Translations under genes and position numbers: made by a program | Assembly (NCBI GenBank): GCA_013151865.1 | Contig: JAADHN010000080.1 | Location: forward strand, 27,647 to 80,513 | Direction: 5' to 3' | Origin: Kiritimatiellota bacterium | GTDB lineage: Bacteria; Verrucomicrobiota; Lentisphaeria; Oligosphaerales; JAADHN01 | DNA: 52,867 bases | In this document: positions 1,307-12,010 of the stretch, in pieces | Layout: each line of letters starts with the position of its first letter | Position numbering within the stretch: the stretch's first letter is position 1 | The notes under the pieces: generated by a model | Database searches by the model: none | The model's input: only the letters and a program-made list of their open reading frames with translations | What the model was told of the DNA's origin: nothing

Positions 1307-4132
1307 ATGCCTGATTTGGAGTCGGCCTTGCCAAAGCTGCTGTTCCAACGCACACGTATTCGAGTCTCCGCCATGGTCGCTATTCCGACCTTTGCACTAT
1401 TGGGGCCCGCGGGTTCGGCTGTGGCGTCCGCCGAATGTGCCCGTCCCATGGTGTACGGCTGCGGCATCACCTGGGGAAAATGGCTTGGTTTGACCCCGGA
1501 GCCGGCCAAAGCGTTCGACCGGCTCAGCCTGGACCGCATCCGGGCCATGGGCGGCACGAACGTACCGGCCAATTTGGCCTGGATCGATATCGAGCCGCAT
1601 CCCGGAGAGTTTCACTGGGACTACGTTGATCATCAGGTCGCGGAAGCACGCAGGCGTGGCCTGGAGATCTTCGCCTACACCGGCCTGACTCCTGATTGGG
1701 CCCTGCCCGCCAACGCACCGAAGAAGCCCGGCATCGGCTATCGTTTTCCCCCGGACGAGCGCTTCATTCCGCAGTTCGAGGAGTTTTTCACCCGCTTGGC
1801 CCGCCGCTATCGGGGACGTGTGCGGTATTACGAATTCTGGAACGAACCCAACGGCTGCAGTTGGATCAACGACAATTGTGCCAACGGACACATGGCCGCG
1901 TCCTACGTGCCCTGGCTCCAACGCTGGTATCGGGCCATGAAACAGGGAGACCCGGACTGTGTGCTGGCCATCGGCGGTTTGGATTACCACCAGGGCGTGA
2001 AAAACGGCTGGCGGTACATCGAGGATGTGTACAAAGCCGGGGGCGGTCCGTTCTTCGATGCCGTGGCGATTCACCCGTACGGCTCACCACTGCACTGGGA
2101 AGCCATCGACGATGCCTACGCCGTGCTCCTCCGGCACGGGAACGGCGACCGGTGCCTGTGGCTGAACGAGTACGGCTGGAACACTTCGGACGAACGCCGG
2201 AAATCGGAATGCCTCAAGACTGTGCTCACGGCTCTGGCGGGACCGCGGTACGCCATGGTGTTTCAGGCAAGTTACCTGGTGCTGACCGACCTGCCGGGAA
2301 CCGACGACCGCACCGGACATGATTACGGCTTGTGCGCCCGGGACCGGCGCCGGGGCACGATTACGGCGCGCCCCAGTTACACGCAGTTCCGTAGGATTGC
2401 GCACGCGGCAGCGGGCGCCGGGCAGGAGCAAACGCCTCGGCCGGTTTCCCCCTTTCGCACGGGCTCGCCCCCTGCACGCAGTCCGGTCCCGCCCGGATTC
2501 ATGCTCTGGTTCGCGGCGCCGGGGTGCGACCCGGGCGGGAACGGCGACGATATGGGGCCACCAACGGCCGTCCGACGCAAATGGATGGACCGGGCCGGGG
2601 TCAACACCGCAACATTCACGATCAGTTGGGCCGACACCGAACCGAAGCCGCCCATAAACGGCCGTCATAAATTCGATTTTTCCCGGGTCCGGCCCTCACG
2701 CTGGGTGCGAAAACACCCGTACATCATTGCCAAACTCCACTTCTTCGACAATCCGTGGGCCGGGGTCTTCCGGTTCAAGGACATCCCGCGGTACAATCGG
2801 CGCTTGGCTGAATGGGCCGAAGCCGCCTGCCGATTCGCACGCGAGCGCTACGGGGTGACGCTCTTTCAGACCGGCGGCAACGAACGCGACCTCGTGGCCC
2901 CGGAAACCTATCGCCCCCACTTCCCGGACTGGCATTTTTTTTACATGGATCCGGTCAAGGCCGTGCATCGCGGCATGAAAAAGGCCGGGGCCGACAACCG
3001 TCTCATTATCGGCAACCTCTGCTACTCCGACCGCGAACACATCAGCGCCCTGTACGATGCGGGCGCCAAAGGGTATTTCGAAGTCCTTGCCATCCACGCG
3101 TACGGTCCGCGCGGCGTGTATGTGGACATGGATCAGATCATCGAAAGCCACCAGGAAGTGGCGGCGCGCGGCGATCCGGACATCCCCATCCTGGTCACTG
3201 AAGGCTGGTCCTGTTTCCCGCTCCCGGACAGCATCGACAAGGACCAGGCCTTCCGACGCGGTCCGCGACCGTACACGTCGCGGGAGGTCGAGCATTACCG
3301 GCAGACCGTACTCGACGGCTGGCGCAACCTCACCACCTTGCGACCGGGACAATACGATCCATCGTGGCTGCTCGGCGCCCGCTACTTCGTGCTCAACGAT
3401 CATTGGGGAGGACGACACTGGCAGGACCGAGCCAAACCCAAGTTCGACGAAAAGGGCCGTCTGATTGGATTCAACCTCGACGGATACTGGATTGCCACGC
3501 GCGACCCGAACTGGGTCAAGCCCTTCCTCCGGCCCTGGGGCCTGATCGATATCGAGGGCCGTCCGAAAGGGGATGTGGTCGAACGTTTCCCGCCGTACAT
3601 TCCCCTGCACAGTCTCCGGGCCCGACTCGAGGCCAAGTTATCCGAAGTCCCATATCATCCCCGCCGCAAAGATTGGACGGCGCCCGAAGCGACGGCCGGA
3701 CAACCGTACACCGTGTCAGTCGAGTTTTTGAATCTCGAGCAGACCCCCATGACCGGTCTCCTGTTCAGTGTGGGCGAAAAAACCGCGGCGGATTGGCCTG
3801 GTGGGTATGCGTTTGCCTTTGTCAACGGGCAGCTCCAACGGCCGGTTCCGCCCGCAAATGCGCACAAGATTCGGGCCGAGCGGCTCGGACCGCCGCCGCC
3901 CGACATGGTCGGGCCCGGGCAAAAAGTTCGGCTCACATACCGCATTGTGTTCTCGCCCGATCTGGCGGGACACACCGACCGCGGCTGGCGCAAGCGGGTA
4001 CGCCCCTACGTCGACCTCTGGTATGTCTGGCGTGGGCGTCCCTACCACACCGACGCCTGGCTTCCCCGGGTCGTGGTGCGCGCACCGAAAACGCAAAACC
4101 CCGGCCGGTCGACCGACAAGAGAGGGCCATAG
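1307..4132 (+). CDS. Secreted bimodular clan GH-A glycoside hydrolase
   Basis: A 941-residue protein with two TIM-barrel glycosidase-like domains in tandem. Domain 1 (about 45-370) resembles GH39/GH5-like retaining enzymes: YYEFWNEPNG supplies a candidate acid/base Glu180 and LWLNEYGW a candidate nucleophile Glu288. Domain 2 (about 395-780) has TGGNERD (Glu526) and ILVTEGWS (Glu632) in the equivalent places. The C-terminal 150 residues look like a beta-sandwich. An N-terminal hydrophobic stretch, AIPTFALLGPAGSAVASA, indicates export. The ATG at 1307 is preferred over 1241, which lies inside repeat R1; an ATG at 1373 is possible. It is followed 68 bases later by another glycosidase gene on the same strand. 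Substrate is unknown; family assignment below clan level is not possible by eye. Confidence 0.78.
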   Translation: MPDLESALPKLLFQRTRIRVSAMVAIPTFALLGPAGSAVASAECARPMVYGCGITWGKWLGLTPEPAKAFDRLSLDRIRAMGGTNVPANLAWIDIEPHPGEFHWDYVDHQVAEARRRGLEIFAYTGLTPDWALPANAPKKPGIGYRFPPDERFIPQFEEFFTRLARRYRGRVRYYEFWNEPNGCSWINDNCANGHMAASYVPWLQRWYRAMKQGDPDCVLAIGGLDYHQGVKNGWRYIEDVYKAGGGPFFDAVAIHPYGSPLHWEAIDDAYAVLLRHGNGDRCLWLNEYGWNTSDERRKSECLKTVLTALAGPRYAMVFQASYLVLTDLPGTDDRTGHDYGLCARDRRRGTITARPSYTQFRRIAHAAAGAGQEQTPRPVSPFRTGSPPARSPVPPGFMLWFAAPGCDPGGNGDDMGPPTAVRRKWMDRAGVNTATFTISWADTEPKPPINGRHKFDFSRVRPSRWVRKHPYIIAKLHFFDNPWAGVFRFKDIPRYNRRLAEWAEAACRFARERYGVTLFQTGGNERDLVAPETYRPHFPDWHFFYMDPVKAVHRGMKKAGADNRLIIGNLCYSDREHISALYDAGAKGYFEVLAIHAYGPRGVYVDMDQIIESHQEVAARGDPDIPILVTEGWSCFPLPDSIDKDQAFRRGPRPYTSREVEHYRQTVLDGWRNLTTLRPGQYDPSWLLGARYFVLNDHWGGRHWQDRAKPKFDEKGRLIGFNLDGYWIATRDPNWVKPFLRPWGLIDIEGRPKGDVVERFPPYIPLHSLRARLEAKLSEVPYHPRRKDWTAPEATAGQPYTVSVEFLNLEQTPMTGLLFSVGEKTAADWPGGYAFAFVNGQLQRPVPPANAHKIRAERLGPPPPDMVGPGQKVRLTYRIVFSPDLAGHTDRGWRKRVRPYVDLWYVWRGRPYHTDAWLPRVVVRAPKTQNPGRSTDKRGP

Positions 4133-7819: not shown

Positions 7820-10800
7820 ATGACAAAAACGTCGTTCATTGGAAATGCGCCGCGCCGCGCCGCTCAGTCAAGCACGAAACGGAGACTTGCGGCGGCGCTG
7901 TCAGTCCTCACCGCCGCGCAAATCGCCTGCGCACGGGACATCTACGTCTCGCCGCAGGGCGACAATGCCAATGACGGTGCGGCGCCAGACCCGCAACACG
8001 CGCTGCGCACGATCCAGGCCGGCGTCGATCGACTGAACCCCGGCGACACGCTCCTGGTCCGCGACGGTGTATACCGTGAAACAGTGACGTTTCCCCGCAG
8101 CGGTACTGCCGACGCGCCGATCACGGTACGACCCTACGGCGACGAAACGGTCACCATCAGCGGGTGCGACCTCATCACGGGCTGGACCCTGCACGATCGC
8201 GACAAGAATATTTGGAAAGCGCCAATGCCATGGACGCTCGGCAAAGGACGCGACCAGGTGTTCGCGGGCAAAGGGGCCGCAGGAACGGAAGGAAAGCGCT
8301 TGCAGCGCAGGAAGGCGGGCGGGGCCGCAGGAACGGAAGGAAAGCGCTTGCAGCGCAGGAAGGCGGGCGCGGCCGCAGGAACGAAAGGAAAGGAGATTCA
8401 GACAGGCGAAAATGAGTTGGAGGTATTGGTCGAAGCGCGTTTCCCGAACGAGCCCTCCCCCGGTCTCGGCATGTATGTGGCGGACTTGAACCCGCTGTGG
8501 CCGACCTTCGGCAAATTCTCGATTCCCGACCCCAAGAAAGCCCCCGGCCGGATTGTCGGCAAGCTCCTCGACAACTTTCCCAAGGATTACTGGAAAGGGG
8601 CGCTGTACTACGGGGTGCACTACCAGGGATGGTGTGCTCAAACGGGCGTGATCGAGAGTTCCGGGCCGGGCGAGATCACGGTGGGCGACCGTACCCGGAC
8701 ATGGTGGTTCCCCGGCCGTTATTCGAACTACAAACCCGAAGAAGGCCGGGGCATGATCACCGGGCACATGCACGCCCTTGACCGGCCGGGCGAATGGTGT
8801 TGGCAAGACGGTACGCTTTACCTGATCCCGAAGCACCCGGGCAGGCCGCGGGCGGTGGAGGCCAAGCGTCGCCAAATCGCCTTCGAACTCAGCGGTCGCC
8901 GGTACATTCACCTGCGCGGACTCCGCATCCGCGCCGCCTCGATGCGCCTGGACGGTTCGGCCTACTGCACGGTGGACACGTGCGACATGGCCTACATCTC
9001 GCACTTCATTCGCCAATACAGCATGGGGCAGGTCGAACCCGGACGCGACACCATCCTCTCCGGCGAGACGGGGATCTATGTCAGCGGCCACGACAACGCC
9101 TTCCTCAATTGCAGCATCCGCATCAGCGCCGGGGCCGGCTTTCACCTCCGCGGCTTTCACCACACGATTCACAACTGCCTCATCGACCAAGTGGATTACA
9201 CCAGCCACTACTTGAATGCCATTACCGATGCGGTTTCCGACTTCAACAACTACGACGGCCGACTGGTGGGCGGACATGTCATCACGTTCAACACCATGCG
9301 CAATGCGGGGCGGCATTTCTTCAACTTCTACGGTAACGGCACCAGCCGCCAATCACGAGACCGCGCTCCGATGGATTATATGGCCACGCTCTTCGCCCAC
9401 AATCACCTGTACAACGGCATGCTCGAAACCAAAGACGCCGGCTTTCTGACCGGGTACTATTCGAGCGGCGGCACACTCGACGGCCTCAACGCCCAAGTGG
9501 CGTACAACGTCATGCACGACTCGTTCGACATTTTCGGCATGCGCATCCACAAACTGGGCCTCATCTATCTCGATGCGGGCACCTGCGACGTGGACGTCTA
9601 CCGCAACCTGCTCTGGGCCGCGCCCGGCACCCTCCAGGGCGGCTTGTGGTTCAATACCGCATGCGTGGACGTGCACGAACGCGACAACGTTTTTTACCCG
9701 AATTTCACCCGCACCTGCGCCGAGTTGAAGCCGGCCGATTTTCCCACCGGCAAACCGTTCCGGTTCGGACACGATTTCGTCCACCCGCCGCCGATCCCGA
9801 CCTGGCCGCCCATCGAGCGCCGCCGCCTGGAAGCCGAAGCGTGTTCGGCGCAGTCCCCCCACGTTGCGGAGTCCGCAAGGGCCCGCATCCTGGCCGACGG
9901 CGACTGGCTCGCCTTCCCGGACATCGACTTCGGCCGTCCCTGGCAGGCCGTGGTGATGCGTTTTGCCGGCACGGCGAAAACCATGAACACCGACCGGTCG
10001 ATGCGACGCCCCCCACGCCACCGCAAGGCCACCGACCCCCTCGTCCTGGAAGCCACGGTTAACGACGGCGCATCCCCGGAGATTCGCAAACAGTGGACGT
10101 TTATCCATCACGTACTCGATAAGTCCTGGGTCCGTTTCGACAAGGTGCCGTTGGGCGCCGGCTACCGCCGTTTCCGCGCGGTGTACGGCAATGTGTACCC
10201 CGGCAAACGTTGGATCGAAGTCCGGCTCGACCGTGCGGACGGTCCGGTGGTCGGCCGTGTGGACCTGGGACGCACCGACCGGCCGCGCAACGGTCACGTA
10301 CAGATTTACGCCGAGGCCACCGCGTCGGTTGCGGCGTCCGCACAAGGTACGCGTAATGTGTTCCTCGTTTTTCGCAGCGCGGACGCACTGCCCGTGGGCG
10401 AGTTCGAGTACTTCCGTTTCGAACGTTGCCGTCAAGACTTGTCTCTGGCCAAGACCGAAGTCCGGTTCGAGCTGCGACTGGACGCGCCCGACGGCGAGAA
10501 GATCGGAACGCTCTACCCGCGCGATACAGGCGGCGCGACGGCGTTCCGTCGGTTCGTGGCCCGGCTTGAGCCGGGCCGGGGCAAGCGTGTGCTGTACCTG
10601 TCCGTTCGCAGCGCCGTCCCGGGGCCTCTCGGCGCCGTGGACTGGTTGAGCCTCGAGCGGGCAAACCCGAATCCGTACCGGGTTGCCGGCATCGGTGTAC
10701 CGCCGTTGCGCGACGCCGCCGGGCGCATGGTCCTGCCGGCCCCCACGAATCGACCGATTGCACGGCCCGGAGATAAGTACCCGGCCAAACCCCTCTCCAG

Positions 10801-12010
10801 GGCACGCACCGGCCCGCGCCCGCTCTTCCCGGCAACACGTTTCCTCCGTACCGCGCCGAAGCTCGACGGTCGACTCGACGATTGGCCCGAGACGCCTGTG
10901 CTCGCGTTGCGTGAATCCTGGGACGGTTCGCCCAGCACGGCGCCCGCCCCGGTCGCCCGGATCGGGTACGACAACGATGCGCTGTACGTGGCCGTCTCGA
11001 CCCCGGTGTCCAAGCCGGCCGATTTGAAGATCGACGGGTACGTTTGGGGACGGACCGACGCCATGGAAATCGCCTTTCAGAACGGACTGACCGCCGAACC
11101 CGGCCCAATCCTGAATGTCTACGGCTGGCCGGACGGCCATTGGGTCGTGAGCCGTGCACCCGGCACACCTGCGGAGTCCGCAAAACGCCTCGGCAAGGGC
11201 GTGGCATACCGCGCCACCGTATTGAAAGACCGCTGGACATGCGAATGGCGTATCCCTTTTGCCGCCTGCGAGTTCAGCCCGGATACGACCCCGTTGCTGC
11301 TCTTCAATCTCGGGGTACGCAACATGGCTGCGGACGCCTGGGCCATTTGGCACGGGACGGGGGAGGCCACCTGGCGCGTCGCGTCCGGGGGTATCCTGGT
11401 ATTCCCGAAATCGCTCCGGGACGGCCGGGATCTGCCCAAACGCGACTTGGCCCTATGGCTCGATGCCGCCGATCCGAGCACACTTGTGCGCGATCCATCC
11501 GAACGCGTCCGCCTATGGCGAGACAAGAGCGGACACGCACGGCACGCGGCCCAGCCGAACCCGGCCTTCCGGCCATGGTTCGTTCCCAAGGGCTTGAATA
11601 GCCGGCCGGCGGTCGAGTTCCGCGAAAAGGTTCGCACCCGCCTCGAATTGCCGGACCTCTCCGACAAACAGGTATCCGTTACGGTGTTCGCCGTGTTCAG
11701 CAATCCGGTCCGCGGCAGCCAGAACAACCATGACCCGCGCATCCTCGCCGCAAGCGACGGAAAGAAGTACGACTACAAGGTCGGTCTGTGCGCCAGCGTC
11801 CCCGGATTCGAGACCGGCGGCCCCCGTCAAAGCGTCTGGGTATTCGGCGACCGCTGGGCCAAGAAAGTGCGGATCGGCTGTTTTTCGCCACTCTACCAGA
11901 CCTTCTTCACCGGCCGTATCGCCGAAATCCGAGTTTACTCCCGTGTTCTCGATCGTGCGGAACGGGAGCGTGTCCGCGCTTACCTGATGCAGAAGTGGGG
12001 ATTGTATTGA
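7820..12010 (+). CDS. Secreted right-handed beta-helix protein with CBM9-like and LamG-like modules
   Basis: A 1396-residue exported protein with a signal peptide ending near ACA (about 35). The mature region opens IYVSPQGDNANDG and continues LRTIQAGVDRLNPGDTLLVRDGVY, the hallmark of DUF1565/pectate-lyase-like parallel beta-helix proteins (to about 640). Next come a CBM6-like sandwich starting LEAEACSAQS (about 670-950), a DOMON/CBM9-like module starting PKLDGRLDDWPET (about 1015-1195), and a C-terminal LamG-like domain starting LALWLDAADPSTL and ending FTGRIAEIRVYSR. A perfect 16-residue duplication plus a partial third copy (residues 152-191) interrupts the helix between DQVF and VEARFPNEP, where relatives usually have a short VDG-type loop. 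A polysaccharide lyase or hydrolase role is likely by fold; catalytic residues cannot be assigned. The ATG at 7820 has an AGGA upstream. Confidence 0.8.
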   Translation: MTKTSFIGNAPRRAAQSSTKRRLAAALSVLTAAQIACARDIYVSPQGDNANDGAAPDPQHALRTIQAGVDRLNPGDTLLVRDGVYRETVTFPRSGTADAPITVRPYGDETVTISGCDLITGWTLHDRDKNIWKAPMPWTLGKGRDQVFAGKGAAGTEGKRLQRRKAGGAAGTEGKRLQRRKAGAAAGTKGKEIQTGENELEVLVEARFPNEPSPGLGMYVADLNPLWPTFGKFSIPDPKKAPGRIVGKLLDNFPKDYWKGALYYGVHYQGWCAQTGVIESSGPGEITVGDRTRTWWFPGRYSNYKPEEGRGMITGHMHALDRPGEWCWQDGTLYLIPKHPGRPRAVEAKRRQIAFELSGRRYIHLRGLRIRAASMRLDGSAYCTVDTCDMAYISHFIRQYSMGQVEPGRDTILSGETGIYVSGHDNAFLNCSIRISAGAGFHLRGFHHTIHNCLIDQVDYTSHYLNAITDAVSDFNNYDGRLVGGHVITFNTMRNAGRHFFNFYGNGTSRQSRDRAPMDYMATLFAHNHLYNGMLETKDAGFLTGYYSSGGTLDGLNAQVAYNVMHDSFDIFGMRIHKLGLIYLDAGTCDVDVYRNLLWAAPGTLQGGLWFNTACVDVHERDNVFYPNFTRTCAELKPADFPTGKPFRFGHDFVHPPPIPTWPPIERRRLEAEACSAQSPHVAESARARILADGDWLAFPDIDFGRPWQAVVMRFAGTAKTMNTDRSMRRPPRHRKATDPLVLEATVNDGASPEIRKQWTFIHHVLDKSWVRFDKVPLGAGYRRFRAVYGNVYPGKRWIEVRLDRADGPVVGRVDLGRTDRPRNGHVQIYAEATASVAASAQGTRNVFLVFRSADALPVGEFEYFRFERCRQDLSLAKTEVRFELRLDAPDGEKIGTLYPRDTGGATAFRRFVARLEPGRGKRVLYLSVRSAVPGPLGAVDWLSLERANPNPYRVAGIGVPPLRDAAGRMVLPAPTNRPIARPGDKYPAKPLSRARTGPRPLFPATRFLRTAPKLDGRLDDWPETPVLALRESWDGSPSTAPAPVARIGYDNDALYVAVSTPVSKPADLKIDGYVWGRTDAMEIAFQNGLTAEPGPILNVYGWPDGHWVVSRAPGTPAESAKRLGKGVAYRATVLKDRWTCEWRIPFAACEFSPDTTPLLLFNLGVRNMAADAWAIWHGTGEATWRVASGGILVFPKSLRDGRDLPKRDLALWLDAADPSTLVRDPSERVRLWRDKSGHARHAAQPNPAFRPWFVPKGLNSRPAVEFREKVRTRLELPDLSDKQVSVTVFAVFSNPVRGSQNNHDPRILAASDGKKYDYKVGLCASVPGFETGGPRQSVWVFGDRWAKKVRIGCFSPLYQTFFTGRIAEIRVYSRVLDRAERERVRAYLMQKWGLY
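8273..8391 (+). repeat. In-frame 48-bp tandem repeat, two perfect units plus partial third
   Basis: Units 8273-8320 and 8321-8368 are identical; 8369-8391 repeats the first 23 bases with two differences. Each unit starts at codon position 1 and encodes GAAGTEGKRLQRRKAG. Each unit contains the small palindrome GCGCTTGCAGCGC. The strongly basic repeat is unlike the rest of the beta-helix protein and looks inserted. Confidence 0.93.
9865..9877. repeat. Iterated 13-bp palindrome TGCGGAGTCCGCA
   Basis: Exact palindrome in the beta-helix gene at the helix/CBM junction; encodes VAESA. Confidence 0.85.
11170..11182. repeat. Iterated 13-bp palindrome TGCGGAGTCCGCA
   Basis: Exact palindrome in the CBM9-like part of the beta-helix gene; encodes PAESAK. 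Confidence 0.85.

Follow-up and report, generated by a model that had tools for sequence, protein, structure and literature searches.

Palindromic repeats within genes

Rickettsia palindromic elements (RPEs) are small palindromic repeats that lie between genes and also in frame within protein genes, as set out in PMC10969869 and PMC1950309, the former describing the in-frame cases at unusually high frequency. Mitochondrial hairpin elements, including double-hairpin elements and the GC clusters of yeast var1, are short hairpins, often tandem or double, which according to PMC2800124 are sometimes located within genes and are not removed from the RNA. REP and BIME sequences form mosaic strings of short, regularly spaced palindromes with fixed linkers (PMC2817692, PMC3733652), and REPs inside genes have been reported too (PMC3733652). 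PARCEL repeats are tandem and in frame, are encoded by DNA with dyad symmetry, and carry a 25-residue amphipathic, conserved protein motif (PMC2996958).

Here, a 48-bp tandem repeat was analyzed in a stretch of 52,867 nucleotides (the window) from a Kiritimatiellota bacterium, located on an 80-kb contig (C78) of a 6.2-Mb genome in 176 contigs. Judged by sequence identity, Lentisphaerae bacterium RIFOXYA12_64_32 and Victivallales SZUA-436 belong to its order, which most likely makes it a member of Lentisphaerota. Like in-frame RPEs, the window copy is a coding insertion absent from homologues; it differs from the RPE unit of ~150 bp with its conserved peptide (PMC10969869, PMC1950309) in being a tandem 48-bp hairpin pair, and the in-frame copies in this genome lie on opposite strands, encode unrelated peptides, and do not conserve their stems. 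The short hairpins, in tandem, resemble mitochondrial hairpin elements, which differ in being organellar. The PARCEL motif contrasts with a 16-residue basic unit here, which is not conserved as protein between arrays. The window repeat family works like RPEs and mitochondrial GC clusters or hairpin elements, and it fails a defining test of RPEs, of REP/BIME, and of PARCEL.

An in-frame insertion in a beta-helix protein

The host gene has a signal-like N-terminus, and its product matches CBM_6 in Pfam (E 2.1e-16) and, weakly, Chondroitinase B. Distant relatives of the beta-helix part in the PDB are the glycoside hydrolase BT_1002 (E 2.5e-8) and the xylosidase 3vst (E 1.4e-4), both of which we take to be right-handed beta-helix enzymes. 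The initial annotation had proposed that two perfect 48-bp units and a partial third were inserted, in frame and free of stop codons, into a secreted beta-helix gene, splitting a region that runs from QVF through a short loop to EARFPN. Tandem Repeats Finder and a comparison of the units confirmed the repeat (period 48, 2.5 copies, 97% matches at 8273-8392), the reading frame was open throughout, and the split region measured 56 residues versus about 7 in homologues. The features of the locus are as follows.

7820..12010, + strand: host gene, intact, for a secreted right-handed beta-helix protein with CBM6, 1396 aa (open frame, Pfam, PDB matches)
~8270..8419, + strand: inserted segment, net gain of ~49 codons versus homologues (18-homologue alignment, motif scan)
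8273..8320, + strand: 48-bp unit 1 (Tandem Repeats Finder, unit comparison)
8321..8368, + strand: 48-bp unit 2, identical to unit 1 (Tandem Repeats Finder, unit comparison)
8369..8392, + strand: partial unit 3, 24 nt, 2 differences (unit comparison)
8393..8419, + strand: non-repeated tail of the insert (absent from homologues)
8296..8308, repeated at 8344-8356, + strand: hairpin GCGCT-TGC-AGCGC between two AGGAA (hairpin analysis; DNA fold of 8281-8390)
8315..8328, repeated at 8363-8376, + strand: hairpin GCGG-n6-CCGC between two AGGAA (hairpin analysis)

Each unit is translated as GAAGTEGKRLQRRKAG, 16 residues rich in Lys and Arg. A 22-mer of the unit was found twice when up to 3 mismatches were allowed, versus 0.00 expected from the shuffled window, and a chance origin of the repeat is excluded. 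The DNA of 8281-8390 folded better than shuffled sequence (z -3.29); RNA folding of 8268-8400 was no better than shuffles (z -0.50), and no Rfam model matched the window at gathering score. Apart from the array itself, no direct repeats longer than 6 nt were found at the approximate borders of the insert. The 11-mer AGGAGATTCAG follows the array at window positions 8390-8401 and also the array at the end of contig C91 (L137, minus strand). With 4 occurrences in 1.1 Mb, and shared by 2 of 11 arrays, it may be there by chance.

The insert was missing in all 18 aligned homologues, whose identity to the window fragment across the aligned region is 57-75% and whose records bear the labels Lentisphaerae, Victivallales, Verrucomicrobia, Planctomycetes, Armatimonadetes, and others; a homologue carrying the segment was sought among them and not found. 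A nineteenth homologue locus (L098) was left out of the alignment for a stop, and its match length also fits an empty site. In a motif scan, the spacing from QVF to EAR[F/H/Y]PN was 7 residues in most homologues versus 56 in the window, and whole-genome matches in relatives were interrupted at host residues 149-153/201-202. Since the homologues lack the segment and its spacing, about 49 aa (147 bp, ~8270-8419) were gained. The insertion thus exceeds the repeat in length, the tail at 8393-8419 being missing from the homologues as well. Judged from these alignments, the window segment is a true insertion. In the AlphaFold model made with this alignment, of which only the N-terminal part was used because the overall model was mediocre (mean pLDDT 60), the insert scored ~25-50 (25-32 over most of its length) and the N-terminal 100 residues at least 90 (block means). 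The model places the insert between the strand containing QVF and the strands that follow, so that it is predicted to form a disordered loop between two strands.

A diverged family of hairpin arrays

An exact 18-mer of the unit was found in the 6.2-Mb genome only in the two window copies. A blastn search with the 161-bp stretch recovered C140:9622-9726 (79% over 105 bp, E 5.5e-16) and C64:3632-3744 (74%, E 7.3e-8), and nothing else in the genome below E 0.25. The 14-base core pattern GCGCAGGAARGCGG gave 11 exact matches on 6 contigs and exposed extra arrays at C140:15.7 kb and C86:0.4 kb; its matches on C77 and C170 look like chance. A covariance model built from nine units identified 15 places in the genome at E <0.001, about 10 of which belong to the training set or to the identical window unit 2. 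Newly found were C176 and C86:447 and, with weaker scores, contig starts or ends of C5 and C91. A scan of 986,346 bases of the genome that ignored structure added the end of C7 and the start of C70. The grammar AGGAA-N11-17-AGGAA-N11-17-AGGAA matched 28 times versus 0 for the backward control, although about 10 of the 28 belong to an ordinary-looking repeat on C77; the matches listed, C77 and C54 aside, all fall in arrays on C5, C64, C78, C86, C140, and C176. Diverged relatives of the window array were thereby located on C140 (two), C64, C86, C176 (two), and C5 and at three contig ends (C7, C70, C91). About 10 arrays were seen in all, most of them differing by 20-25% or more. These comparisons establish a family relation between the window repeat and the dispersed arrays, between which copying would have taken place.

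What the arrays share is a grammar and not a sequence: short GC hairpins with differing stems, AGGAA punctuation, and superunits of ~46-48 nt, each usually composed of two hairpins and a purine spacer. The stems between AGGAA motifs include GCGCC/GGCGC, GCGGC/GCCGC, GCCC/GGGC, GCCGC/GCGGC, GGCGC/GCGCC, and ACC/GGT. We know of no AGGAA punctuation in mitochondrial hairpin elements. Stems of at least 4 bp were present in 28 of 51 distinct inter-AGGAA segments versus 9.1 expected (sd 2.6, maximum 17, 500 shuffles), and stems of at least 5 bp in 15 of the 51 versus 1.7, counts to be read with the caveat that most arrays were found via sequence or a stem-including model, those on C7 and C70 being exempt. 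Compared with dinucleotide shuffles, DNA folding gave z <=-1.99 in 8 of 10 array stretches and was no better than chance for arrays on C176 (z 0.01) and C7 (z -1.17). The T content was 0.7-5.2% in nine of 11 arrays and 12-15% in the other two, and stop codons are scarce in all six frames. The arrays on C86 and C64 have ~70 bp of upstream sequence in common (L045, 303-370; L012, 3560-3625). This shared stretch contains another GC hairpin, which ends in GGAATGCAGGGAAGACGGAACG and may represent a terminus of a more complete element.

The arrays occupy varied positions. That on C64 lies between open frames ending at 2964 (+) and 3903 (-) of L012, and on C86 an upstream frame extends ~25 codons inside the element and then reaches a stop. 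At C140:9.6 kb the array is located inside an open frame on the opposite strand, which we take to encode a transglutaminase-like protein; it reads as SSFSCGPRRLPAPAAP-like repeats and occupies a linker that varies among three homologues, all lacking such a repeat. The array at C140:15.7 kb (L043, i.e. C140:12000-20000, at 3697-3826) lies at the start of an exported-looking frame and would encode hydrophobic, signal-peptide-like LFFL/PLSCA repeats, its coding status being uncertain because the units are 47 and 48 bp. Two arrays on C176 (L135, 1-210 and 847-1005) flank, partly in opposite orientation, a four-helix IVP gene (23S_rRNA_IVP, PF05635). A general link to 23S-rRNA IVP genes was rejected: four of them were identified in the genome, and the flanks retrieved for the remaining three were free of arrays. 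Arrays touch contig ends on C5, C7, C70, C91, and C176. After eight of 154 contig ends examined had been set aside, having been chosen from earlier work on those contigs, an array was present at 2/146 ends versus an AGGAA cluster in 2/2169 internal tiles (Fisher p 0.02), neither of these tiles containing an array by eye. The family is therefore probably undercounted, and the true number of arrays may exceed ~10, given that contigs end in arrays.

Beyond this genome, the covariance model had no match in 97 other genomes from its order and class, all of them belonging to other families, and no relatives of the arrays were found in plasmids, phages, or viral contigs. The AGGAA grammar gave many matches in the 97 relatives; those inspected among the matches listed were simple coding repeats or heptamer/nonamer arrays and were rejected as hairpin arrays. 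Two genomes of the same order contain dispersed arrays of their own: G025 has many AGGAATT-like heptamer arrays with TTTGTCATGAGAAATT interruptions, and G026 many AGGAAGCCT nonamer arrays, often close to contig ends. A narrow literature search on palindromic intergenic tandem repeats in this bacterial group returned none, and absence from the literature is not claimed.

Origin of the inserted segment

The window segment is probably an intragenic copy of this lineage-restricted hairpin/AGGAA repeat, which entered a turn and grew by 48-bp units. An array copy would have landed in the part of the gene encoding the turn that joins two beta-strands (QVF and EARFPN). It would then have expanded by whole units, the most likely mechanism being slippage during replication or unequal recombination, aided by the hairpins. 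Three properties would have let the insert survive: the arrays are poor in T and thus in stop codons, the unit length of 48 is divisible by three (the other arrays have periods of 46-48 nt), and a long, basic, disordered loop would be tolerated at the turn. We infer the order of events, the route of entry and its age, slippage as the mechanism, and a neutral effect on the protein. Against this reading, the analysis revealed neither a transposase link nor terminal repeats nor a target-site duplication for the repeat family, the arrays are few and mostly diverged, the window stretch folds no better than shuffles as RNA, the C176 and C7 arrays mentioned above fold no better than chance as DNA, and the in-frame copy at C140:9.6 kb sits in a linker that is variable among homologues anyway. 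The initial annotation had pictured a selfish repeat in a tolerant surface loop and advised a search of the genome for copies. The first idea was largely right as regards an insertion in a predicted disordered loop; identical selfish copies were not supported, and no movement was observed. The search found the exact unit nowhere else, yet recovered a dispersed, diverged family with at least one other in-frame copy. Because the exact unit is not repeated elsewhere, the family is diverged and defined by its hairpin/AGGAA architecture.

A purely local origin, in which slippage duplicated the loop itself and the dispersed family is unrelated, would agree with the confinement of the exact 18-mer to the window and with the observation that every array is most similar within itself. 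It is nevertheless improbable, given the matches to the arrays on C140 and C64 over 105-113 bp at the E values above, their identical unit length and order of AGGAA and hairpins, and the lack of any precursor of the repeat in the homologous loops.

Slightly less credible again is that the arrays are genuine REP/BIME elements mobilized by a RAYT (HUH tyrosine) transposase. The alternation of short palindromes with fixed linkers does resemble BIMEs (PMC2817692), and the genome contains five Y1_Tnp matches, four of them above the cut-off; however, the flanks of the five Y1 loci harbor no AGGAA clusters, no GTAG or CGTC tag was noticed by eye in the array sequences, and the ~10 arrays seen fall short of >100 copies. 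No linked RAYT was found. The location in a coding loop also sets the window copy apart, although REPs inside genes have been reported, as mentioned above.

Selection for a functional loop, such as a basic extension that binds a substrate or surface, would suit the Lys/Arg-rich unit and the exported-looking, carbohydrate-related protein. Its absence from 18/18 aligned homologues, the predicted disorder of the insert, and the finding that related arrays lie outside genes or are read in other frames and on other strands make selection for such a loop very unlikely; a function of the loop is possible, and nothing in the present data supports it. Least probable of all is an assembly or binning artefact, as the window array is internal to its 80-kb contig and the reading frame and conserved protein carry on at both sides of the insert, even if the 176-contig assembly, with arrays at contig ends, makes copy number unreliable.

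Hairpin arrays as a possible source of protein segments

The intragenic copy preferred here represents a clean case, with 18 empty-site homologues, in which a stray hairpin repeat would have been made part of an intact, exported-looking protein outside Rickettsia. A more tentative suggestion, which we consider rather doubtful as a whole, is that the family keeps its architecture (AGGAA, hairpin pair, ~47-nt period) as stems turn over by paired changes, and that the arrays constitute a standing source of new protein segments because stop codons are scarce in them whichever of the six frames is read. Such segments would include the basic loop in the window gene, the proline/serine-rich linker read from the opposite strand at C140:9.6 kb, and possibly the hydrophobic, signal-peptide-like N-terminus at C140:15.7 kb. 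If the family does keep structure over sequence, repeat finders based on identity will miss such arrays, and the arrays would offer a testable route for the origin of new protein segments.
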